From a virus: a DNA stretch of 30,768 nt. The stretch is taken from IMG/VR virus record IMGVR_UViG_3300050821_005345, positions 1 through 30,768 of that record. One strand, given 5' to 3'. Below, piece after piece: positions 6,647-26,887 of the stretch. The position numbers and the translations under genes are program-made. Position 1 is the stretch's first letter. Every line of letters begins with the position of its first letter. The notes under the pieces are model-generated. The model worked only from the letters and a program-made list of their open reading frames with translations, was not told the DNA's origin and ran no database searches.

Positions 6647-7681
6647 TTAGCAACTACCGCCGCGCCGCGAAGCGCCCGACTGATAGACCGCCCGCCGCCG
6701 CACGTTCGTGTACTGCAAAAGTTTCCCTTGTCGGTTGGTCAGGATCTCGTTGACCGCGAGGTCGCCCTTCGCCATGAAGTCGTCGCCGGCTGATTTCGCT
6801 CCGCGCGGGGTGACGAAAATTCCCGCCGAGTAGTAAGCCAGCGCATCCGAGCACCGCATGATCGGAATGACGGTCGACGCGAACGACCCGGAGACGGCGA
6901 TGTCTGCCAGAAACGCGCGATAGCTGATGCGCACATCGAGCGGCAGGATCGCGCCGGGGAAATAGATGGCATCTTCGCGCCAATCCCACATCCCATTCCA
7001 GCTCCCCTTCACTCGATCTGGCAGTCGCCCCACGGTCACATTCATGGGCTTAAAGCCGAGCGGGTTGACCACGCCGATCCCGACCGATTGCCGCTCCCAC
7101 AATTCATTCGGCGACATGAAGTCCTGCGGCAGCACCGGACAGACGCCAGTAGCCGGCGGCGGGACTGCGGGACTCCACAAATTCTTGCCGTCGAAAAAGT
7201 TCGTCCAGTTCACCCACTGCTGCACTGCAGGGTCGAGAGAGCCAACGACGGGCAGGGAATAAAGCACGGTTTCGTTTCGGGTGCGGGGATGGGAGGACTG
7301 ATCGAGTTTCTGCTGCAGCTTGCGCCAGGCCAGATTCACCGTGGGCACGATGTAGGCTTGCGAGTCGGCGAAGATGTCGCCGGTGGGAAGCAGTGCCGAG
7401 TAAGCGACGCCAGCCTGCACACCAGCGGTCGCGACCAGCAAGAGTGTGGTGGCCGAAGTCACCAGCGCCACGGTGTAGCTGATGCCGTTGATGACGATGG
7501 GCTGGCCGTTGAGCAGATAGGTGAACTTGTTCCCGCTGACCCAGCTCACCACGAGTGCGTTGGTATTCACGACGCCGGCGACGTTGGGGTTGATGCCCTG
7601 GATGTAGTCGCCCAGATAGGTGCGGGTCTGCGCGGTGACGGTGGCCAGGGTATCGTAGGGAGCTTGGGGAGCGAGAGGCAT
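6647..7681 (-). CDS. Putative head-tail adaptor protein
   Basis: This 344-residue protein has a short N-terminal helix (TLATVTAQTRTYLGDY) typical of the start of phage adaptor subunits. Residues ~42-98 form a beta module, and residues ~100-344 carry a helical and beta body with aromatic-rich segments (QQWVNWTNFFDG, FMSPNELWERQ, GMWDWREDAIYFPG). The beta module is closely similar to one inside the 1100-residue nozzle-like protein. It lies downstream of capsid genes and upstream of tail genes, where podovirus adaptors sit. The start codon is only 9 bases from that of a plus-strand gene, and no strong ribosome-binding site is seen. The adaptor assignment is moderately supported; minor tail protein is the alternative. 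Confidence 0.55.
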   Translation of the reverse strand: MPLAPQAPYDTLATVTAQTRTYLGDYIQGINPNVAGVVNTNALVVSWVSGNKFTYLLNGQPIVINGISYTVALVTSATTLLLVATAGVQAGVAYSALLPTGDIFADSQAYIVPTVNLAWRKLQQKLDQSSHPRTRNETVLYSLPVVGSLDPAVQQWVNWTNFFDGKNLWSPAVPPPATGVCPVLPQDFMSPNELWERQSVGIGVVNPLGFKPMNVTVGRLPDRVKGSWNGMWDWREDAIYFPGAILPLDVRISYRAFLADIAVSGSFASTVIPIMRCSDALAYYSAGIFVTPRGAKSAGDDFMAKGDLAVNEILTNRQGKLLQYTNVRRRAVYQSGASRRGGSC

Positions 7682-7690
7682 GGGGTTAGA

Positions 7691-7939
7691 ATGCGGAAAG
7701 TGAAAGGAACTATCTATCTGCGAACGCTGTGCAACTGCGCATCACACTTCAACGACGTGGAGTGGCCGCCGCCGCGGATATACGAAATCCCCATTTTTCG
7801 AGAGGTCGTTCCCGTGCAGATGCACGCTACCGCAGAGCGACCGGCGAGCACAGTCACAAAGAAGCGAGTCTTCGAGCTGTACGAAATCAAACCGGGGCCT
7901 CGTCCAAGCGCTCATTACCGCGAAAGGTGGGAAGGCTGA
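7691..7939 (+). CDS. Small protein of unknown function, first gene of an inverted two-gene cassette
   Basis: The 82-residue frame starts at an ATG at 7691. It begins MRKVKGTIYL, has CNC near residue 15 and aromatic/proline runs (EWPPPRIYEIPIF), and ends basic (RPSAHYRERWEG). The frame stays open further upstream inside the opposite-strand adaptor gene, but that part reads as a shadow. Its TGA overlaps the ATG of the next gene by one base (TGATG), implying coupling. It runs antisense to the surrounding structural operon. No family is recognised. Balanced composition and coupling to the Tat-leader gene argue that it is real. Confidence 0.6.
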   Translation: MRKVKGTIYLRTLCNCASHFNDVEWPPPRIYEIPIFREVVPVQMHATAERPASTVTKKRVFELYEIKPGPRPSAHYRERWEG

Positions 7940-8349
7940 TGAACCGGCGCAACTTTCTCTCGACTCTGATCGGCGGCGTCGTCACAGCGGCTGCGGTGCG
8001 CACGTTTCCGTTTCGTGTGTTCAGTTTCCCGACGCAACTCACCGGCAACTGGGAAGGGCTACACATCGATCCCTTTCCGGGTGTGCTCACGACTCCGAAG
8101 CTCTTCGCTGGGCCTCACGGCTGGGGCCTAAATGCAATCCCTTACCGCGTCAATCCCTATCTGCCGGTGAATGAAATCTGGCTGATCCGTGAACCGAAAG
8201 TGCAAGCACTTCATCTCCACGAAGGGCCACGCGCCGGACAGGACATCCGAGAAGTCATTGAGCCCGGGCAGATTCTCCGCATCATCGACTTGAAACCCGT
8301 GGAAGGGAAAGAGCCATTGCTCACGAGTCTGCGCTGCGGGATTCTCTAG
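7939..8349 (+). CDS. Exported protein with twin-arginine (Tat) leader, unknown function
   Basis: The 136-residue product begins MNRRNFLSTLIGGVV, which fits the twin-arginine pattern R-R-x-F-L followed by a hydrophobic segment of Ala, Val, Gly and Ile. Tat leaders direct folded proteins across the inner membrane. The mature part has a Trp/Gly/Pro-rich start (HGWGLNAIPYRVNPYLP) and a beta-strand C-terminus (LRIIDLKPVEGKEPLLTSL). The fold looks small and compact, but I do not recognise it. It is coupled to the preceding plus-strand gene, and its stop overlaps the stop of the convergent minus-strand gene by three bases. A moron-like or envelope-modifying role is possible but unproven. Confidence 0.65.
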   Translation: MNRRNFLSTLIGGVVTAAAVRTFPFRVFSFPTQLTGNWEGLHIDPFPGVLTTPKLFAGPHGWGLNAIPYRVNPYLPVNEIWLIREPKVQALHLHEGPRAGQDIREVIEPGQILRIIDLKPVEGKEPLLTSLRCGIL

Positions 8350-9047
8350 ATCGACTTCGCCTTGATCTCCCCCGCTTCCTTCGAGTCCTGCCGCGATCCG
8401 CAGTGCCGGCACAGCAACGCGCCCTCGATGATCGGCTCTTTGCAGAACACGCACTTGCCCATCGTGTGCTCGGCTACGCCGAACAGCGGCGACTGCCCCA
8501 GCAGCTCCGCGGCTTCGTTGTAAAGTTCCGGATCGCGCGAGTTCACCGGGAAGACGTGCCCGCGAAGCTTGAGATTCGAGCCGGTGTCGTAGACCAGGCG
8601 CAACATCTGATGCACCTTCTTGCGCGCGCCATCCAGCTCTTTCTTGGTAGGCTCTTCGTTCTCGGTGACGAACACGCCCCACCAGGTCAGGTCTTCGGCG
8701 TCGATCGACAGTCCGCCGCGGCCTTCGTGGATCAGGGCTTTGGCTTTGTCGATGCCGTCCTCCTCGAGCCAGGCCATATTTCCGGCGCCGTCGGCCAGGT
8801 CGTAGGGCTCCATTTCGATGTTGCGGAACACCAGCGGCGTGGAATACGGCTCGCCCTTGGGACAGGCTTCGAGCACGCGCAGGCCTTTATTCAGCGGCGG
8901 GAATTCATGGCGCCGCGGTCCGACGTTGAAGACGTACACGGGCGGGAATTTCCTCGGGTCTTGCTCGCGCAGAGATTTCGGCACGGGCGGCACCCGGCGG
9001 CGGTTCACTTCGGCGGCATCGTAGCGGCCTGCAACTGGGACTAACAT
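8346..9047 (-). CDS. Conserved-looking phage protein with C-terminal zinc ribbon
   Basis: The start chosen is the ATG at 9047, preceded by a GGAG ribosome-binding site; the frame is open further upstream but lacks a comparable site. The 233-residue product has a Pro/Arg-rich N-terminus, a central charged domain (about residues 90-170, with WWGVFVTENEEP), and a C-terminal zinc ribbon with CxxC at ~199-202 and CxxC at ~213-216 (CVFCKEP, CRHCGS). The tail after it is Lys/Glu-rich. The gene lies downstream of the capsid block, a region used by head-completion and connector proteins. Function is unknown; metal or nucleic-acid binding is likely for the ribbon. Confidence 0.7.
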   Translation of the reverse strand: MLVPVAGRYDAAEVNRRRVPPVPKSLREQDPRKFPPVYVFNVGPRRHEFPPLNKGLRVLEACPKGEPYSTPLVFRNIEMEPYDLADGAGNMAWLEEDGIDKAKALIHEGRGGLSIDAEDLTWWGVFVTENEEPTKKELDGARKKVHQMLRLVYDTGSNLKLRGHVFPVNSRDPELYNEAAELLGQSPLFGVAEHTMGKCVFCKEPIIEGALLCRHCGSRQDSKEAGEIKAKSI

Positions 9048-9977: not shown

Positions 9978-11258
9978 CTAGTACGAAGCCGGAATTCCAG
10001 CATTCGGCCAGTACACACCGGCGCGGGGGTTATCCACGAAGAAGTTGAACCCGCCCCAGATGTAGGTGATCGTCGCTGCCGACAGACCGCCGGAAGCGCC
10101 GTAGATCGGCCACAGCGTTTGTCCGCCGAAGTCGAGCGGCCCGATCGGCTTGATCTCGCCGCGGCCCCAGTGCTTCAGCACCAGCCCGTCTATGCGGCCG
10201 CGCTTGGCGTGGATCGAGACCAACTTCGGCATGCCGCCCACGGTTTCGGCCGAGTCCGACTGCAGCATGTCGACCGCGTTCCCACCCTTCAACTGGTTGG
10301 CCACGACGATCTGCGGAGTCAGCGACAAGTTTTGCCATGCCGCATCCTGGTCCGTGTTCATGTGGATCAGGAATTCCTTGACGTTGGGGTTGTCGATGCC
10401 CAACGCGGACTTCATGGCGTTTTTGCCGCGCTGGATGGCGGCGGGAGTGACGGCAAAGCCAGCCAGGTTCACTTGTGGGGTGATCAAGCGGCCGGGATAC
10501 GCGGACCGGGCCAGGTTCAGCCAGGTTCCGGTGTTGCCGGGGTTGTTCTGGTGGTACTGCAGCGAGAACAGCGACGTGGAAGCCACGCCAGGTGCTCCGG
10601 CAATGATGCACAGATAGCCTGCGACCGTTCCCGCGGGAACCGGGCCGGTGAGATAGACCGTCTGCGTCGACGTGGTGGCATCGTTTGATAGAACGGTCAC
10701 CGTGCCGTCCGGGTTGTAGCCCACTAGCGGCGCCGCGCCCAGGGCCGGGAAGATGTTGAAGTTCATCTGGTCCTGGAACTGGTTGGCGTTGCCGACGACG
10801 ATCTGGTTGACGCCGGTCGAGACGATGGTGTCGATCGTGCCGGATCCGGTCGGGTCGGAATTGAGCAGCGACTCCAAAAACACCTTGAAGCGCTGCGTCA
10901 TCTTTTCGAGGTTGCGCTTGGCGGCGGGCTCGACGGCTTTCTCTTTGCCGTCAGTCGCCACTTCAGCGTATTTCGTGAACTCGGTTGCGGCCGAGAAAAA
11001 CACCGGCGATAGTTGCCAGTAGGTCGAGACGATGGCTTTCCCACGTCCGAAGTCGCCGCCGTCCGGATCCACCTGGCTCGGCGAAGTGCCGGAGTAGACG
11101 TCGAGGATGCCGCGCATGGCGCGTGAGGACTGCACTTCGACGTTGCGCTTTTCGATCTTGTCGAACAGCGTGGTGTCGCCCTGCATCAGCTCCTCGATGC
11201 GGGGCAGCAGTTTTTCATACTGATAGGCGATGTACTGCGCGTTGGTGCCTTGAGGCAT
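9978..11258 (-). CDS. Major capsid protein candidate (HK97-fold type)
   Basis: This 426-residue protein begins with a helical N-arm (IAYQYEKLLPRIEELMQGDTTL) and has a P-domain-like helix around residues 105-135 (KRNLEKMTQRFKVFLESLLN). Beta-rich inserts with Thr/Val/Gly runs occur at ~140-255. A late A-domain-like portion includes KEFLIHMNTDQDAAWQ and GGFNFFVDNPRAGVYWP. Size, composition and position directly after portal and scaffold-like genes all fit a major capsid protein. The ATG at 11258 has a GGGAG site 9 bases upstream and is preceded by a 205-base spacer, as expected for a strongly expressed gene. No protease gene is seen next to it. Confidence 0.75.
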   Translation of the reverse strand: MPQGTNAQYIAYQYEKLLPRIEELMQGDTTLFDKIEKRNVEVQSSRAMRGILDVYSGTSPSQVDPDGGDFGRGKAIVSTYWQLSPVFFSAATEFTKYAEVATDGKEKAVEPAAKRNLEKMTQRFKVFLESLLNSDPTGSGTIDTIVSTGVNQIVVGNANQFQDQMNFNIFPALGAAPLVGYNPDGTVTVLSNDATTSTQTVYLTGPVPAGTVAGYLCIIAGAPGVASTSLFSLQYHQNNPGNTGTWLNLARSAYPGRLITPQVNLAGFAVTPAAIQRGKNAMKSALGIDNPNVKEFLIHMNTDQDAAWQNLSLTPQIVVANQLKGGNAVDMLQSDSAETVGGMPKLVSIHAKRGRIDGLVLKHWGRGEIKPIGPLDFGGQTLWPIYGASGGLSAATITYIWGGFNFFVDNPRAGVYWPNAGIPASY

Positions 11259-11463: not shown

Positions 11464-12858
11464 CTATGGTCGTTTAACCTGGATCAGCTTGCCGGTTTTC
11501 AGCCGGTAGATGCCGTTCCACTTGTCGGTCAGCGGATCGGAATAGTTGATCTCTTTGGCCGGAGGTAGCGCGTTGACCTGGATCGGAGTTTCTTTGCCGA
11601 AGGTACGGGGACGCTCTCCTCCACCGCTTCCGCCTTTATCCCCATCGGCTGCTTTGCGCGCTCCCGCCTTCGGCTTGCCGAACCATTCCGCGAAAATCAC
11701 CGAGGCCACTCCGGGCTTATTTTCGGTTCCTTTGATCGCCTGGTCGTGGCGGGCGTTCAGCATGCGCACGCACTTCGCGGTGTCGCCGGAAGCGAGCGCG
11801 GCGGAGTATTTGTCCAGCCACTTCGAATCATTGAGCACTTCGTTGTGCACTGCATTGCGCACGTCTTTCAGAAAGCGCCCGTAGCGGTTGGGCTGATCCT
11901 TCTGCAGCTTCGCGAGATCGAAGCCGGACGACTTGGCCACACTCGATAGTGAGGTTTCGATCCCGCGATTGAGGTAGGGGCTAGCCTCGGTGTTGATTTT
12001 CGCGTTCCGCACCTGCTGCTTCTCTTCGCCGAGCTTGTTGCGCTCTTCGTCGAGCTTGCGCTGTTGCGGGTCGATCTGTTTTTCGGGAACCTTCTTCGCG
12101 AATTCGTTGCGAGAGTTGTAATACTTCGCCAGAGCCTTCGCCAGTTGCGCAGCCTGCGGATTGTCTTTCAAGTCAGCGAGAGTTTCGTAAATCTTTTCGA
12201 CCGGCAGGTTCTGCAGGTCGTTGACGATGACCTTCGCCATCAGGTGATCGTAGTGCTCGGGGTGGTGTTCGGAGACGTAGCCGAGCGAGTTGGTGAAGTG
12301 CTTCAGAGAGAGATCGGCGTTCTCTTTGAAACACATTTCGGTCCACTTGGGATCGCCGTTGTTAAAAAGTTCCGCATCGGCTGCGTATGCGTTCATGTCG
12401 CCCTGCAGCTTTTCGATGCCATCGACGCCGCCGAACTCCTCGATCTGGCGGGCCAGGCCGATCGCTTCCTTCACGCCGCCAGGAAAGGTTTTCTTCAGCG
12501 CCTGGTTCGCGAAGTAGATTGACCGGAGGTCTTTGTCTTGCTCGAAGAGTTCTTTATATTTGGCGGGGATTTTGCGGCCGTCGGCGAGAGCGACTTCGGC
12601 GTTTGGGTCGGTGGATCCATCACCGTCTCCAGATCCCTCAGGAGAGCCGTCCCCAAGGTCTTCCCCGGGCTCGCCTTCAGCGGGGGACGCACCGTCCCCT
12701 CCTGAATCGCCACCAGTTGCGCCACCGTCCGTCGCGCCATCTCCGCCTCCCTCGACGGCCGCAAGCGAACTCGCGCCCCCGCCGTCAGCAAAAAATAACG
12801 TGCCTGCAAGTACGAAGCGCAGAAACCAGAATTTCAGAATCAGATTAAGGCGTTGCAT
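11464..12858 (-). CDS. Scaffold-like head assembly protein
   Basis: The start chosen is the ATG at 12858, with GGAGG eight bases upstream; the frame is open further upstream inside the portal gene. The 464-residue product has a hydrophobic N-terminus (LNLILKFWFLRFVLAGTLFF), then a long disordered Gly/Asp/Glu segment (about residues 24-95). A helical, charged middle and C-terminal part follows, including DEERNKLGEEKQQV around residue 275, and the end is basic (LKTGKLIQVKRP). Acidic and helical composition and the position between portal and capsid fit a scaffolding protein. The hydrophobic N-terminus is unusual for a scaffold. Confidence 0.65.
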   Translation of the reverse strand: MQRLNLILKFWFLRFVLAGTLFFADGGGASSLAAVEGGGDGATDGGATGGDSGGDGASPAEGEPGEDLGDGSPEGSGDGDGSTDPNAEVALADGRKIPAKYKELFEQDKDLRSIYFANQALKKTFPGGVKEAIGLARQIEEFGGVDGIEKLQGDMNAYAADAELFNNGDPKWTEMCFKENADLSLKHFTNSLGYVSEHHPEHYDHLMAKVIVNDLQNLPVEKIYETLADLKDNPQAAQLAKALAKYYNSRNEFAKKVPEKQIDPQQRKLDEERNKLGEEKQQVRNAKINTEASPYLNRGIETSLSSVAKSSGFDLAKLQKDQPNRYGRFLKDVRNAVHNEVLNDSKWLDKYSAALASGDTAKCVRMLNARHDQAIKGTENKPGVASVIFAEWFGKPKAGARKAADGDKGGSGGGERPRTFGKETPIQVNALPPAKEINYSDPLTDKWNGIYRLKTGKLIQVKRP

Positions 12859-15211
12859 TGGGAAGTCCTCCAGGTGCTGGTGTGGCGAGAGGCGGCAATG
12901 GTGCAGCTCCCGCGGGTGGTGCGCCGGGTCCGCCAGGTCCACCCATTCCAGGCTTCGGCATGGGCATCGGCGGTGGGGGCGGTCCTTCGATCGGCGGCGG
13001 GAACATAAAGTTTTTCGCTTTGCCGGCCGCGACGTGCGCGTTCATGTGCAATTTGAGATCGAGCCAGACATCCATCCCTTTACGGCCGTCGCCGAGATTC
13101 TGCATGCGTTTGATCTTCTGGCCTTCCGGCGAATTCAGGATGCGCGAACATTCCATCGCTTCGTTGACGTGATCCTCGGAGTCGTCGACCGGGATGCTCG
13201 ACTTCATAATCGGCGGCTGTTGGGGCAGCGGCGGCATCTCTTCCGGCTGTTTGCCGAGCTGCGCGGCGGCCTGGGTGAGCTGCTGCTGGCGCTGTTGGTC
13301 GCGCTGCTCCATCGCGTCGTCATCTTGCTCCGGGCCTTCGCCCTTCTGCATCTCCGCCCATTCCATGATCTGCTTCTCGCGCGGATCGGCGGCGGGGATG
13401 TCGAATTCTTCGACCCCGATGGCTTCGTATATCAATTGCTGATTCGTCGGCAGCTGCAGAGTCGCCGCAAGCGATGGGTTGGTTGGGGCCGCGGCCATGA
13501 GGCCTTTTATGGTCTGGGATTTCGACGACCACGATTCGGGGAACCCTTGCGCGGAGATGGCGGTGCAGGTGAAGCCGCCACGCAGAATCAGGGGATCGAT
13601 CTCGACCGCTTCCTGCTTCCGGTTCGCGCCTTCAACCAGCGCGGCGAATTTCTGATCCCGCTTGGCTGCGATCTTCGCCGCCTGCTCGTGGATCTTCGCG
13701 GCAAAATTCTGGAACGGCACCCAGACGATCGTAAGAACGCCCAGCGATTGCTGCAATGCCTGCTGGTAAGCCTTCGCCGTCTTCTGATCCTCCATGTTGG
13801 CCCCGAACATGGCGGGCTGGTTCAGGGTCACCAGCTGCGTGAGGGGTCCCTGCAGGTTTTGAATCCAGGTTACGAGCACTCCCGGCGCTTCCACCTGCGG
13901 TTCGGGGAAGAAACTGTTTTCGAGCGGTTCGCCTTCCGCCTTTTTCTTGAAGCGGATTGCGCCGTACTGGGCGATCTGGGATTGGATGGCCTGCGCTTCG
14001 GTTTCATCCATATCGGCCCAGAGCGAGGGCACGCAATATTTCAGCAGCTCGGCGGTCAGGTTCATCGCGTCGTTGAATTCCATCTGCACCGGCACGTGCG
14101 GGTCGCCCAGTGAGTTGCGCGCCTGGCCTTCGCCCGGTTCGGCATGCAGCACTTCGATGTGGTCATCGAGCGCGCAGGCCTCCGCGCCGCAAAATGTTTG
14201 CCCCACAAACGTCAGCTTGCAGCCATCGGGGAAAATGCCTTCTTGCTCGGTCTCTTCGCCGTCGTCATCTTTGCCCTCGCCGCCCACAAAGAACAGCCGC
14301 GCTTCCTCGTCGCATTCCCAGAACGCGGCCGGCGTCAGGAACCATTCATCCTCGGTCGCGAGATAAGCCAGCGAATCCTGCGAGAGCTGCGTGATCGACT
14401 CCGCGGTTGAGATCCGCGCCATGCGCGCGATCTCATCATTCGGCGACAGCGATTTCGCGCCCGCGGCCAGGTCTTCGGCGACTTCCGCGTGCTTCTGCTT
14501 CATCGAAACGATGTCGTGATCTTTCGAGAGCTTGCAGTAGGGCCACAGCTTCTTCTCCGTCTCGTAGATTGGGACTTTCGATTCCAGCACGCCGTAGTAG
14601 CATGTTTTCTCGGTCTCGCCGCACTTCTCTGTTTTGGCGATAATGCGGCCATCGGTCCACATCAGGCGTCCGATGGTAATCTGGGCATCCTGCGCAGAGT
14701 TGTACTTGTCGTAGACCTTGAGATATTTCTCGGCTTCGCGGGAGGCGCGGATCGAATCCGATTCTTTCGGCTGGTCCGGTTCCATGCGGATCGCCGGGGG
14801 ATTCTGCGCGAACACGCTGGTGAAGATCTTCCCGTTGGCTTTGAAGATGTTGAAATCTTGGGTCTGCGTGCCTTGCTCCTGGTTCAGGTTCTCCGCGGTG
14901 TTCACTGCTCCGCCTAGCTGCCCGACCTGGAAGCAGTTGGAGTCGTTGTTCCACCAGACGTGCTGTAGGCCCAGCCAGAAATAGCGTTTCAGGGCGCAAC
15001 GCAGGATCTCGATCTGTCGTCCCCACTGATCGCGCAGGTTGTACTTGTTGCAGAGCTGGCGCAGCTGCGCGACGCGATCTTCGGGGAGATCGAGAAACTT
15101 CAGGCCGTATTTTTCTTCCAGAGTCTCTTCCTCATCCCCTTCATCGACTTGATCGTCAACGTCAGGGGGCAGGGAAGCGGTCTCTTCCGGAGTGTCGAGC
15201 AGGTTAGGCAT
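12845..15211 (-). CDS. Portal protein
   Basis: This 788-residue protein lies between the small genes that follow terminase and the scaffold gene, the usual portal position. It has an acidic N-terminus and then a helical core with aromatic-rich segments (ALKRYFWLGLQHVWWNND). A region around residues 400-520 has the portal-like pattern of a long helix and hydrophobic segments (DAMNLTAELLKYCVPSLW, GVLVTWIQNLQGPL). Gln-rich helices follow. The last ~60 residues are a Pro/Gly/Met-rich disordered tail (PMPMPKPGMGGPGGP). Length matches large podovirus portals. The stop overlaps the scaffold start region by 14 bases, and the N-terminus overlaps the upstream gene by eight. Confidence 0.75.
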   Translation of the reverse strand: MPNLLDTPEETASLPPDVDDQVDEGDEEETLEEKYGLKFLDLPEDRVAQLRQLCNKYNLRDQWGRQIEILRCALKRYFWLGLQHVWWNNDSNCFQVGQLGGAVNTAENLNQEQGTQTQDFNIFKANGKIFTSVFAQNPPAIRMEPDQPKESDSIRASREAEKYLKVYDKYNSAQDAQITIGRLMWTDGRIIAKTEKCGETEKTCYYGVLESKVPIYETEKKLWPYCKLSKDHDIVSMKQKHAEVAEDLAAGAKSLSPNDEIARMARISTAESITQLSQDSLAYLATEDEWFLTPAAFWECDEEARLFFVGGEGKDDDGEETEQEGIFPDGCKLTFVGQTFCGAEACALDDHIEVLHAEPGEGQARNSLGDPHVPVQMEFNDAMNLTAELLKYCVPSLWADMDETEAQAIQSQIAQYGAIRFKKKAEGEPLENSFFPEPQVEAPGVLVTWIQNLQGPLTQLVTLNQPAMFGANMEDQKTAKAYQQALQQSLGVLTIVWVPFQNFAAKIHEQAAKIAAKRDQKFAALVEGANRKQEAVEIDPLILRGGFTCTAISAQGFPESWSSKSQTIKGLMAAAPTNPSLAATLQLPTNQQLIYEAIGVEEFDIPAADPREKQIMEWAEMQKGEGPEQDDDAMEQRDQQRQQQLTQAAAQLGKQPEEMPPLPQQPPIMKSSIPVDDSEDHVNEAMECSRILNSPEGQKIKRMQNLGDGRKGMDVWLDLKLHMNAHVAAGKAKNFMFPPPIEGPPPPPMPMPKPGMGGPGGPGAPPAGAAPLPPLATPAPGGLPNATP

Positions 15212-19668: not shown

Positions 19669-21261
19669 TCACGAGTATGCCTTCCCGCCCAGCTTCTCGA
19701 TCAGTGACTTCACCGTGACCACTTCACCCTCGGCTGGTTTCGGCATCTCGCCGGCGAAGTCTCGGCGGACATTCTTTAGCCGTTCATGGAGTAATACTTC
19801 GCGGCTCTTCACCGACGCGCCCAGCATGAACTGCAATCCGTACCGCGCGGAGTCGGCTGGATCGTCGCCGATCTGGTTCTCCGAGAAGTTCACGCTGAGC
19901 ACATCTTCGGTGTTGTGGGGATCGCGGATTAGCGACGGAATGCACTCGACCAGGTGCGGGCAATCTTCACCGACGATCTGCCAGAGTTCGGAGTCGAGCA
20001 TCTGGGCCATCAGTCGCCATCCGCTGATGCGCGAGCCTGGGGAAGATTCCGCAGGGTGAGGTTTCGGCAGATTGTCGGGCATGGCGTCGGAGATCATCTG
20101 TCCGATCGAGCGCCGTTTTCCGGGATCGCGTGGCGAGAGCTTTCCGAAGTCCCAGGAGAAAGGGAAGGCGTCGAACTTCTTTCCGGCGCACATGACTCCC
20201 ACCGTTTTCCCCAATTCGGTTTCCCCGACGCCGCGGCCCCAGTCTTCCTTGTAGGTCACGACGCGGTTGTGCTCGTCAATCTCGTGCAGATGAACTGCGT
20301 GCGGGTGATCGAAGCCCCAATCTCCCGAGATCCATCGCTTGTGCCAGGGTTTGCTCCAAGCCTCGAACTCTTTGCGCGTGATGTTGTGGCGCGCTTTGTT
20401 GAACTGGGTGAAATATTGCCCCTCGAACACATCCCACTTGCCGTAGAGCCAGGCATCGCGCAGCCCCTTGTCGGTGATCGCCAGCAGATCTTGCCCGTAG
20501 TAGGTTCGCGTCAGGAAGTAGTCGCGGCGTTCGGCTTCCGACCAGGAGTAGAACGTGCACTCCTGGCAGGTGCAGGAATCGTCGCCTGGCCGATGGTCGC
20601 CCTGGCCGATTCCATCGCGCGCGAGCTCCGCGCGGGCCCATTCGATGTTGTCCCAACTGAAGGCCTGCAGGAACGCCCAGTGGAATTGTTTCTCTTCCGG
20701 CTTCAGGATGCCGTCGATGAACACGCGCTTCAGATACGGCAAACCCTTCGGAGGCAACCCGCTGGGGCTGCGGCCGGGCATGAAGCTATAGACCAGGGTG
20801 GGCACGATATCTGGGTTCGAGGTGCAGCGTAGCGATCCGCTCATGCGCTCGAGCTCATCCTGAGAAAACTCCTGCGCTTCGTCCGCAAAGATGTCCGCGT
20901 ACTCGGAAGAACAAAAATCGGCGACATCCTTAGAAGTCGGAGCCGACCCGAAGTAGAGCGTGGAACCGACTTCGGGAAACACCAGTTTCTTTTTTTGCTC
21001 ATTGTAGTTCCGTCGCAGCTCCGGCATTTCCTGGAAGAGCTTCTGCAGGTGCGACTGTTCGAGCTCTTTCTGCGAGCGACGAAGGATCAGTCCAGTCGTC
21101 ATGGGAAATTCGAGGCGCCGCGCGATCATGATGCGCCGCACGCCGCCCGACTTCGAGCCGCCGCGGGAGCCACCAAAGCCGATTCTGCGGCAGCGCGGGT
21201 CATTCCACAGGGCCGCGAGCAAGCTTTGCTTGGGCTGCAACCTGATCTTTAGGGCGTCCAA
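19669..21261 (-). CDS. terL: Terminase large subunit
   Basis: The 530-residue product has a Walker A motif GSRGGSKS at about residues 31-38, and a Walker B-type segment YADIFADEAQEF with DE at 127-128, as in terminase ATPases that drive DNA packaging. A nuclease-domain motif ISGDWGFDHPHAV at about 311-323 supplies a candidate metal-binding Asp (D314). A C-x-C-x2-C insert at 230-235 is unusual. The start used is a TTG at 21261, which makes a 62-base overlap with the upstream gene; a later start would shorten it. Length matches phage large terminases. Partner: the small-subunit candidate upstream. Confidence 0.95.
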   Translation of the reverse strand: MDALKIRLQPKQSLLAALWNDPRCRRIGFGGSRGGSKSGGVRRIMIARRLEFPMTTGLILRRSQKELEQSHLQKLFQEMPELRRNYNEQKKKLVFPEVGSTLYFGSAPTSKDVADFCSSEYADIFADEAQEFSQDELERMSGSLRCTSNPDIVPTLVYSFMPGRSPSGLPPKGLPYLKRVFIDGILKPEEKQFHWAFLQAFSWDNIEWARAELARDGIGQGDHRPGDDSCTCQECTFYSWSEAERRDYFLTRTYYGQDLLAITDKGLRDAWLYGKWDVFEGQYFTQFNKARHNITRKEFEAWSKPWHKRWISGDWGFDHPHAVHLHEIDEHNRVVTYKEDWGRGVGETELGKTVGVMCAGKKFDAFPFSWDFGKLSPRDPGKRRSIGQMISDAMPDNLPKPHPAESSPGSRISGWRLMAQMLDSELWQIVGEDCPHLVECIPSLIRDPHNTEDVLSVNFSENQIGDDPADSARYGLQFMLGASVKSREVLLHERLKNVRRDFAGEMPKPAEGEVVTVKSLIEKLGGKAYS

Positions 21262-22101: not shown

Positions 22102-22671
22102 AAAGCAAAGAAAGCAAAGAAATCAAATTTTTAGAGCACGACTCACGGCGTTCGAAGCTTCCGCATCCGTCACCTTCAAATAAGCTCCGGTCGACGCCAT
22201 CGATTTGTGTCCCAAATATTGCCGCACGTTCTCAATCCCCGCAGAATGAATGGTTTGCATGCCGATGGTGTGCTTCAGGATGTGCGGGTGGCGCTTGCGT
22301 TTGGGAATGCCGGCGGCCTTCGCATAGCGCTGCACCAAGCGCCAGAAATGCTGCCGGCAGACCGGAAACAGTCTTTGCTTTCCGGGCACGGAAGCAGAGA
22401 AAGCAGACAGCGCCTGGTGTTCATTTAAGAGTGGATTTTCGTCCTGGACCAGGGGCTGAACCGTGCGCAAACTGCCCTTCAGTCGGGCCACCGTGATGTG
22501 CCCCGCTTCGATCGCATCTCGTTTCATTCTTACGACTTCCGTGGCCCTGAGTCCGTGGGAGTAGGCGACCAGAATCATCAAAAAATCCCGCTCGCGTTCC
22601 GCCCGCGCGGCAGCCAGAAGGGAGAGCAACTCGGGTTTGCTTAAAGCTTCCAAAGCAAAGAAAAGCAAAGA
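22102..22671. repeat. Repeated decamer AAAGCAAAGA flanking the integrase
   Basis: The decamer AAAGCAAAGA occurs at 22102-22111 and 22111-22120, then again at 22652-22661 and 22662-22671. An inverted copy, TCTTTGCTTT, lies at 22372-22381 inside the integrase gene. Copies in each pair are spaced by about one helical turn. Such arrangements can be arm-type integrase binding sites or attachment-site remnants; a chance A/G-rich motif is the alternative. Confidence 0.5.
22123..22668 (-). CDS. Small tyrosine recombinase / integrase
   Basis: The 181-residue product contains only the catalytic domain of a tyrosine recombinase, about the size of FimB/FimE. Candidate active-site residues are R41 (HGLRATEV), K64 (RLKGS), H129 with K132 at the place of the second Arg (HILKHT), H154 (LGHKS) and Y163 (GAYLKV). 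A Lys in place of the second Arg occurs, to my knowledge, in short phage integrases with LKH. Cleavage and rejoining through Tyr is expected. The start is a TTG at 22668 or slightly downstream and is uncertain. Repeated decamers flank the gene, and it stands upstream of the terminase genes. Confidence 0.85.
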   Translation of the reverse strand: MLFFALEALSKPELLSLLAAARAERERDFLMILVAYSHGLRATEVVRMKRDAIEAGHITVARLKGSLRTVQPLVQDENPLLNEHQALSAFSASVPGKQRLFPVCRQHFWRLVQRYAKAAGIPKRKRHPHILKHTIGMQTIHSAGIENVRQYLGHKSMASTGAYLKVTDAEASNAVSRALKI

Positions 22672-24857: not shown

Positions 24858-25154
24858 ATGGCTGCACAGCATCTTACCGTTCTCCCCCCTCTCGAATTTC
24901 CACAGATCCAGCTTTTGCGCTCGACCCTCGATCCGCTCACCCGGATGGTGGACCGCGTTCTGCTCGAATCCCAGCTTTCCCTCTGTTGCTACGAGTCTCC
25001 GGAATCCCGGCCTGGGGCTTGCGACTCCGTACCGTGCAACCAAGCCGCTACCGTGCATCACCTGGCTTTAGAGCAGGAGTTCTGCGCGAAGCACTTCCGG
25101 ACCGTATGGTACGTCGAACAAGCGCGGCTTGCAGCGGAGGTGAGCTGTGGCTAA
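24858..25154 (+). CDS. Small Cys-rich protein opening the recombination operon
   Basis: The 98-residue product has a helical, Leu-rich N-terminus (about residues 15-45) and then cysteines at ~55, 60 and 76 with His at 79 (CDSVPC, FCAKHF), a pattern suited to a zinc site. A GGAGG site five bases upstream supports the ATG. Its stop overlaps the start of the annealing-protein gene by eight bases, so the two are coupled. No family is recognised. Confidence 0.65.
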   Translation: MAAQHLTVLPPLEFPQIQLLRSTLDPLTRMVDRVLLESQLSLCCYESPESRPGACDSVPCNQAATVHHLALEQEFCAKHFRTVWYVEQARLAAEVSCG

Positions 25155-25899
25155 CGGACACGCCCTTACCAACGCCGAACTGGTCCCGGTCGATCTGACT
25201 CCCGTCGAGCTGCTGCGGATCGCCGTCACCCAAAACGCCAACATCGACCAGCTCACGAAGCTGATGGACCTACAGGAACGCTGGGAGCGCCGCGAAGCCA
25301 AGCGCGCCTACGATGCCGCGATGAAAGCGTTCAAAGCGGAATCGCCGCGCATCACCAAAAACCACCGCGTCTGTTTCGAGGCTAAAGACCGCTCGAAGGG
25401 CACGACCGATTACAAGCATGCGACGCTCGATCACGTCTGCGATGCGGTCATCGGAGCATTGTCAAAGGTCGGAATTTCCCACCGCTGGAAGGTTTCCCAG
25501 GCTGGCGAGTGGATCACCGTAACCTGCATCCTCACGCACGAACTCGGGCATGCGGAAGAAACTTCGCTGATGGGCTGCCCTGATAACACCGGCAACAAAA
25601 ACTCGATTCAAGCGGTGGGCTCGACTGTCACCTACCTGCAGCGCTACACGCTTCTGGCCGCAACCGGACTGGCAACGTCCGACTCCGACGACGACGGCCG
25701 CGGCGGAGCTGCAGCGTCCGCGGGAATCTCCGAGAAGCGCCGCGCGGAGTGTTGCTCCTGGATCGCCAACGCGCCGAACGTGATCGAGCTGCGGCGGAAT
25801 TACTTCGAAGCCGTCCGCGAAGCCCGAGCCGCAAAAGATCGCAGCGCTGAAGCTGCTTACATCGCAGCCAAAGATGTGAGGAAGAGGGAACTCCGATGA
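25147..25899 (+). CDS. erf: ERF-family single-strand DNA annealing protein
   Basis: The 250-residue product matches the ERF layout. An N-terminal helix with KLMDLQERWERREAKRAYDA leads to a core with YKHATLDHVCDAVIGALSKV around 89-108, and then QAVGSTVTYLQRYTLLAATG followed by an acidic DSDDDG (about 160-190). ERF proteins pair complementary single strands in phage recombination, usually beside an exonuclease, as here. The GTG at 25147 has GGAGG seven bases upstream. The C-terminal part is helical and charged. The next gene starts within the stop codon. Confidence 0.9.
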   Translation: MANGHALTNAELVPVDLTPVELLRIAVTQNANIDQLTKLMDLQERWERREAKRAYDAAMKAFKAESPRITKNHRVCFEAKDRSKGTTDYKHATLDHVCDAVIGALSKVGISHRWKVSQAGEWITVTCILTHELGHAEETSLMGCPDNTGNKNSIQAVGSTVTYLQRYTLLAATGLATSDSDDDGRGGAAASAGISEKRRAECCSWIANAPNVIELRRNYFEAVREARAAKDRSAEAAYIAAKDVRKRELR

Positions 25900-26207
25900 T
25901 CTGCAAACATTGCGGTAAGCCGATTGAAGAACTGAATCCGCGTGGGCACCTCTACCGCTACACGCACCGCGACGCCGCGCAGACTCGTTGCCGTCGCGCC
26001 GAGCCGGGTGAGTACATCCACAGCACCGAAGAGCTCATCACCGAATTCCTCGACCAGATCGCGGAGGCTTTCGATGCCGATGACGCGGTATCGCCGACCA
26101 CGCTCTTCGTTGATCCGGTCGACGGCGAAGCCATCACCGCGCTCGGACTCTTGCAGCGCATCCGTCTCGGGAAAGTTGACCTGAGAGAAAAGCAGGTGGG
26201 ACGATGA
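25896..26207 (+). CDS. Small zinc-knuckle protein of the recombination operon
   Basis: The 103-residue product begins MICKHCGKPIEE with cysteines at 3 and 6, His near 18 and 24 and Cys near 32, forming a candidate zinc knuckle. The rest is an acidic helical segment (STEELITEFLDQIAEAFDAD) and a basic end. Overlaps both neighbours by four bases (ATGA), so it is cotranslated with the annealing protein and nuclease and may assist them. Function unknown. Confidence 0.65.
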   Translation: MICKHCGKPIEELNPRGHLYRYTHRDAAQTRCRRAEPGEYIHSTEELITEFLDQIAEAFDADDAVSPTTLFVDPVDGEAITALGLLQRIRLGKVDLREKQVGR

Positions 26208-26887
26208 CCCCCGCCGAACTCCTCAACATCGAGCAGGGAAGTTACGAGTGGGCGCAAGCCCGCTGCGGCCTGGTCACCGCCTCCAGGTGCGCCGACGTCA
26301 CAGGTATGTCGAAGGGCACAGAGACGGCCGCGCGACGCAACTACCGCTCGGAGTTGATCTCGGAGATTCTCACCGGCAACCCTTACCCGCAATATCTCTC
26401 CCAGGAAATGAAGTGGGGCATCCTCCAGGAACCGTCCGCGCGTGTGGCCTACGAGCTGCAGCACGATGTCCTGGTCGAGACGTGCGGCTTCATCCTTCAC
26501 CCTGGAGTGGATCGCTTCGGCGCTTCCCCGGATGGCCTGGTCGGAGACGATGGCCTGATCCAAATCAAATGCCCGAACACTTCCACGCATCTCGCCTGGA
26601 TGCTCTCGGGCTCGATCCCGGTCGAGCACATGCCCCAAATGCTCGGGGAGATGAGCTGCACCCAGCGCGCCTGGTGCGACTTCGTGTCCTACGATCCGCG
26701 ACTGCCGGAACACCTACAGCTTTACGTCCGCCGCTTCGCGCGCGACCCGAAGCTGATCGCCATCCTGGAACGGGAGGTGGAGCACTTCAACCGGCAACTC
26801 GACGAACTGCTGGCCGCGCTGCCACAGAAGCCGCAGGGAGTAGTTTTGTGTATGGACCAGGTCGCGGAGGACGAGGTGCAGTTTTGA
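26204..26887 (+). CDS. YqaJ-like / lambda exonuclease family nuclease
   Basis: The 227-residue product has QGSYEWAQARCGLVTAS near the N-terminus, WGILQEPSARVAYE (about 71-84), and GASPDGLVGDDG followed by LIQIKCPN (about 106-125), the family's active-site region. Catalytic candidates are D110, position 120 and K122. Position 120 is Gln where Glu is usual in the E-x-K motif. The C-terminal part is helical. This family makes 3' single strands for an annealing partner, here the ERF protein. Activity with Q120 is uncertain, although Q-x-K occurs in Mrr-type nucleases. Confidence 0.85.
   Translation: MTPAELLNIEQGSYEWAQARCGLVTASRCADVTGMSKGTETAARRNYRSELISEILTGNPYPQYLSQEMKWGILQEPSARVAYELQHDVLVETCGFILHPGVDRFGASPDGLVGDDGLIQIKCPNTSTHLAWMLSGSIPVEHMPQMLGEMSCTQRAWCDFVSYDPRLPEHLQLYVRRFARDPKLIAILEREVEHFNRQLDELLAALPQKPQGVVLCMDQVAEDEVQF

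Follow-up and report, generated by a model that had tools for sequence, protein, structure and literature searches.

The window, here meaning the whole stretch of DNA that was analysed, is an IMG/VR virus contig of 30,768 bases that comes from a soil phage. An earlier note on its sequence had described a coupled plus-strand gene pair within a minus-strand virion block; both open reading frames were confirmed and the neighbours all lie on the minus strand. The pair and the other genes discussed here are the following.

6647–7681, minus strand: connector-position gene of family f16, divergent from the cassette; the family is common to relatives.
7687–7692, plus strand: −10 box TAGAAT, 13 nt before the in-frame GTG 7700; putative promoter, from which both genes would be transcribed as one leaderless mRNA.
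7700 (GTG)–7939 (TGA), plus strand: gene 1, 79 aa, or 82 aa if read from ATG 7691; placed by its ORF and the geometry of the −10 box.
7939 (ATG)–8349 (TAG), plus strand: gene 2, 136 aa, a Tat-type leader followed by a cargo.
8346–9047, minus strand: zinc-ribbon gene, convergent with gene 2 and overlapping it by 4 bases.
9978–11258, minus strand: major capsid protein, family f9, matching phrog_14242.
12845–15211, minus strand: portal-position protein.
19669–21261, minus strand: terminase.
22123–22668: integrase.
25147–26887, plus strand: Erf annealing protein and RecE exonuclease.

Connector and tail genes are also found on the minus strand of this operon. The zinc ribbon of the 8346–9047 protein is C-terminal (PF13248 at 0.003, and several PHROGs without assigned function), and its gene belongs to the structural operon. 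The name “adaptor”, which the earlier note gave to the gene at 6647–7681, is supported by neither Pfam nor PHROGs, and no matches were obtained with this gene as a search query.

Genes 1 and 2 overlap by one base (TGATG), and the gene 2 protein begins with MNRRNFLSTLIGGVVTAAAV. The first start codon had been placed 9 bases from the opposite gene, which is correct for ATG 7691 (the opposite gene starts at 7681), but GTG 7700 is the likelier start of gene 1, because its distance from TAGAAT is the leaderless geometry of the family described below. No family was detected for gene 1 in Pfam or PHROGs. In two other loci (L098 and L104) the gene 1 proteins upstream of the leader gene are mutually related (MR..NQWK...GI...FEWPR), a likeness at the level of sequence hinting that gene 1 also falls into recurring families.

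A database search of both proteins, proposed earlier, gave unequal results: gene 1 had no detectable relatives, and gene 2 led to about 100 through its leader. In fact, the proteins retrieved with gene 2 as query are alike only over the first ~34 residues, which define the next feature.

7939–8040, plus strand: conserved leader, residues 1–34 (MNRRNFLSTLIGGVVTAAAVRTFPFRVFSFPTQL), with about 100 relatives and codon saturation.

The family was gathered by leader-alignment searches and a local profile scan, with search patterns that set no RR requirement. It comprises 106 distinct entries, 104 of them with usable cargo, and corresponds to about 100 different proteins encoded on viral contigs from soil. 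Such retention of the gene 2 leader is not due to chance. There are two leader subtypes, ...AAVRTFPFRVFSFPSEI and ...ALEQAIPFNRVWSFPKEI. The motif RRxFL occupies residues 3–7 (MNRRNFL in the window), RR and F6 are invariant in 90/90 full leaders, and replacement of R by K was never seen. At these invariant residues synonymous codons are free to vary, to the point of saturation, so the leader is selected as a protein.

The Tat signal that had been read in gene 2 is supported at the level of the family, by sequence models. Pfam TAT_signal (PF10518) matches 45 of 100 members and TIGR01409 (NCBIfam) 43 of 100, and these two lead all other families by far in the member tallies. The window protein on its own, however, is missed by TAT_signal even at E ≤ 0.5 and by TIGR01409 as well, so that it is read as Tat-type on the strength of its family. 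Like Tat signal peptides, the leaders possess RRxFL with R never K and a weakly hydrophobic, Gly/Ala-rich stretch (mean Kyte-Doolittle value of 1.5 over residues 5–20). Unlike them, the motif runs on into RT(F/W)PFRV(F/Y)SFP or AIPFNRVWSFPKEI across unrelated cargos, with RV(F/Y/W)SF present in 86/90 leaders, and V-x-S stands where A-x-A is expected, with no clear A-x-A site. No hydrophobic segment was found in the cargos.

We compared the leader consensuses with isolated phages (50,697 phage records) and obtained none or chance matches only, while the whole gene 2 protein gave one weak match among isolated phages, in a Streptomyces phage (E 0.5). No description of such leader-cargo proteins was found in the literature. 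To our knowledge, no protein architecture is known in which a constant export-type leader is joined to permuted capsid, terminase or portal fragments, and the leader-cargo proteins are an undescribed phage family. One leader copy, frame-shifted, is located on an acidobacterial MAG contig (L094:10001–10300) whose 10-kb flanks contain no recognised virion gene families; from this single contig we infer an acidobacterial host.

The cargos, roughly 45–130 residues in length, differ almost every time and look unrelated. We built profiles from the neighbouring gene families and ran them against all cargos. As a result, 41 of the 104 cargos match major capsid, terminase, portal or connector profiles (iE ≤ 0.01); at this threshold neither reversed cargos (0/104) nor shuffled ones (0/520) match, and other small ORFs on the same contigs do so in 11 of 796 cases, several of which are genes cut by contig ends. 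The sources include the P22-type coat (phrog_283), the window-type capsid (phrog_14242), portal (phrog_156), terminase (phrog_979), connector (phrog_12985) and head closure (phrog_578). Coat-derived fragments are scattered across the whole coat protein, and virion-protein pieces recur in permuted order across many independent cargos. One polypeptide (L023) even joins terminase and capsid pieces, which rules out the cargo as a single unidentified domain. The fragments are short and diverged, with 24–73% identity to their sources, and for 63 of the 104 cargos no source was detected. Since the leader served to gather the family, and the profiles were drawn from neighbouring genes, sources distant from virion genes are under-sampled. 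In libraries independent of these contigs, portal and major-head families are among the top cargo matches, these matches being few.

Moreover, the capsid type of the cargo fragment agrees with that of the phage's own capsid in every case in which the latter lies in the fetched locus. The cargo tends to lie nearer to the phage's own homologue than to the average one (mean quantile 0.265, n = 27, Wilcoxon p = 4e-4), though the own homologue is rarely the best match. Judged by these profile matches, the cargo detectably holds in-frame head-morphogenesis fragments of the own-phage type in about 40% of the members. This make-up, exchangeable and partly consisting of head-protein fragments, is visible only through comparisons.

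Some candidates were set aside. Matches to the f7 profile were discarded as probably due to low complexity, and the tails PPVAQLKS, SHTPS and ISLRS, considered as protein modules, arise at least in some cases where the 3′ end of the neighbour is read through in antisense. That assembly artefacts explain the family in general is ruled out by the many independent contigs. At one locus (L070:9989–11121) a 746-base tandem repeat doubles the start of the leader gene and is probably either misassembled or duplicated only very recently, and the cargo match of the repeat copy to the adjacent antisense ORF was left out of the evidence.

In the window itself, the cargo can be divided into two modules, listed here with the capsid segment concerned.

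8041–8097, plus strand: module 1 (TGNWEGLHIDPFPGVLTTP), resembling the major capsid segment TGTWLNLARSAYPGRLITP.
10476–10532, minus strand: the segment of the phage's own capsid that module 1 resembles.
8134–8316, plus strand: module 2 (AIPYRVNPYLPVNEIW...HEGPRAG...LKPVEGKEP), residues 66–126, homologue of a small gene in L137.

Module 1 (residues 35–53) is 63% identical to the cargo of L011, which matches the capsid profile at 5e-6. Compared directly with the window capsid it agrees at 9/19 residues, a likeness that is weak alone (profile iE 0.1), and the whole window cargo against its own capsid gives a shuffle p of 0.0055. The homologue of module 2 is a small independent gene situated immediately upstream of a terminase-like ORF (0/2000 shuffles), and a search with the module 2 alignment returned no viral relatives. 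The AlphaFold model of the window gene 2 protein has no confident fold (pLDDT 35). From these alignments gene 2 appears as a composite, with a virion-protein source recognised for one of its two modules only.

Of the matches obtained by reading the cargo DNA in six frames (iE ≤ 1e-3), 29 fall in the coding frame, 0 in the two shifted sense frames (+1/+2) and 4 in antisense, the last mostly overlaps with the 3′ end of the convergent neighbour. The 29:0:0 split argues for selection at the protein level. Homologous cargos (L014/L072 and L033/L103) have dN of 0.3–0.5 with saturated dS, which indicates purifying selection. Swaps have also left traces: in L006/L120 the leader has a dS of 0.22 versus 0.02 for the cargo, and L033/L040 have unrelated middles and a shared 3′ end of 91% identity. 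A mobile leader and promoter trap could gain nearby virion fragments by Erf/RecE-type annealing, most cargos then being functionless, and the mosaic cargos with swaps between conserved flanks, the annealing recombinase in the window phage and the low cargo conservation among members are what this would produce. However, such a by-product would not keep the source frame as strictly as found here, nor would its homologous cargos be under purifying selection or its leader be so strongly selected; this already disfavoured explanation is improbable.

As for expression, a −10 box starts exactly 12–13 nt before the start codon in 31 of 53 antisense copies, compared with 1–2 of 53 in control windows, and this position implies a leaderless mRNA and a promoter of the gene's own. 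In many antisense copies without their own box, a coupled small upstream gene carries it, as in the window. Antisense copies are therefore probably transcribed from their own promoter into leaderless mRNA that carries either the leader gene by itself or a single coupled small gene ahead of it. A generic sigma-70 scan found no two-hexamer promoter in the window, and a terminator search of positions 7500–8500 found none. In P22-type phages the leader gene usually runs in the opposite direction to the late operon and is located mostly between head closure and connector, and it also occurs at other operon junctions. The Hc3–connector gap is typically about 200–500 bases where the leader gene sits between them; the two genes abut in four loci without it there (L134, L138, L108 and L009). 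In the other lineage the leader gene is either antisense, as in the window, or on the same strand. Same-strand copies have no promoter and are located among terminase, portal, scaffold and capsid genes. An integrase gene is present in 15 of the 31 records with an antisense copy, against 1 of the 12 with a same-strand copy (p 0.017), an association that is suggestive only, since the records are partly fragments.

The moron character put forward earlier is supported by an own promoter (read from sequence), by junctions that vary and that relatives keep closed, and by antisense placement; among relatives, no longer gene on the minus strand takes the cassette's place. Inverted orientation as the mark of a moron is apt for the window and many other copies, but same-strand copies exist. 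Like phage morons, the family combines a putative independent promoter with inter-gene insertion, often on the opposite strand, and sites empty in relatives. The window cassette without terminator, the same-strand promoterless copies and the virion-fragment cargo are unlike them. On these features the leader-cargo gene is best described as a moron-like, cargo-swapping accessory cassette. We are highly confident of its anatomy, namely a Tat-type leader selected as protein, an exchangeable in-frame cargo with head-protein fragments, and a putative promoter in antisense copies.

What the protein does is a more tentative matter. It could be an accessory of the virion or its assembly, whose capsid-like cargo docks on the particle and whose leader is a membrane or virion anchor with no export signal. 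The same-strand copies among head genes, which may be made late, and the leader residues RV(F/Y/W)SFP, conserved beyond any cleavage site, would suit this role; antisense copies with their own promoter opposing the late operon, and modules derived from different proteins in different phages, would not, and we regard it as very improbable. An ordinary Tat-exported moron, much as the earlier note proposed, might alter the host envelope or block superinfection from the periplasm, the fragments being raw material for fast-evolving domains. The Tat-type leader, the absence of hydrophobic segments from the cargo and the moron architecture agree with this, but it leaves the recurrent in-frame, permuted, same-type head pieces in independent cargos unexplained, and it is unlikely.

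We tentatively favour a different possibility, suggested by sequence comparison: the cargo would imitate segments of the real capsid, terminase or portal and bind their partners, and such a mimic, together with the partner it holds, would be taken by the leader to the Tat translocase or membrane, the partner thereby being removed or blocked. Tat exports folded complexes including signal-less partners, a hitchhiker co-export (PMC4273604), by which a mimic could remove its partner. The partner might be the assembling virion proteins of related phages, so that superinfection is interfered with from a prophage or early in infection; a prophage-encoded protein, Tab, that blocks virion assembly provides a precedent (PMC10884400). 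Alternatively, it might be host immune sensors for capsid, terminase or portal, as CapRel senses phage capsid (PMC9712102). Interference with kin phages is rated slightly above the sensor decoy. The Tat-type leader, the head-protein origin of many cargos, the own-type cargo match, the in-frame fragments, the purifying selection and swapping of cargos, the own promoter and the integrase association support the mimic, as do the integrase, Erf and RecE of the window phage. Against it, Tat export leaves the cytoplasm, which is the site of both assembly and sensors; same-strand promoterless copies may be co-expressed late, when self-poisoning of assembly would carry a high cost; no source could be detected for 63 of the 104 cargos, and for the window's module 2 the match is a small gene without assigned function. 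Short diverged fragments and the pLDDT of 35 for the window protein also count against it. The general formulation, a fast-evolving system of interference at the protein level in which shuffled, in-frame own-class fragments behind a Tat leader would bind the partners of the real proteins, the Tat pathway would remove the complex and virion genes would serve as the library, is doubtful but worth stating.

The sensor option can also be taken as a separate explanation, a counter-defence decoy in which early-made fragments occupy CapRel- or Avs-type sensors and the Tat leader drags the sensor away. Described immune sensors bind whole folded domains, and the fragments are short by comparison; connector fragments occur too. 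The proteins from which cargos are drawn are also described as triggers of sensors (PMC9712102), cargos favour the type of the phage itself and its kin, and the host-type −10 promoter lies on the early strand, yet on balance we find the decoy rather unlikely.

Two known systems bear a partial likeness to the family. With Tab-type assembly blockers the mimic would share its proposed effect only, prophage block of kin virion assembly, whereas Tab targets the tape measure of the tail and is paired with an anti-Tab (PMC10884400). As in polymorphic toxins, a constant N-terminal targeting part is followed by a swapped C-terminus between conserved flanks; unlike in these, no toxin family appears among 100 members (Pfam, PHROGs and NCBIfam tallies) and there is no immunity gene, the downstream neighbours of antisense members being virion genes on the other strand. 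If the mimic reading is true, phages turn pieces of their own kinds of virion proteins into inhibitors or decoys, and this would be relevant to kin exclusion and to the evasion of immunity that senses capsid and terminase. Irrespective of function, the family is a natural set of about 100 selected proteins, many with capsid fragments.

Related late-operon proteins of ~140–170 residues are encoded at L114:11448–11972 and L120:19690–20103, both on the minus strand, and end in a segment like the C-terminus of the P22-type coat. At L032:5591–6778 there are three successive overlapping small genes, the first of which has no leader and strings together capsid-like, HP-motif and terminase-nuclease-like segments; thus fragment proteins are not confined to the leader family.
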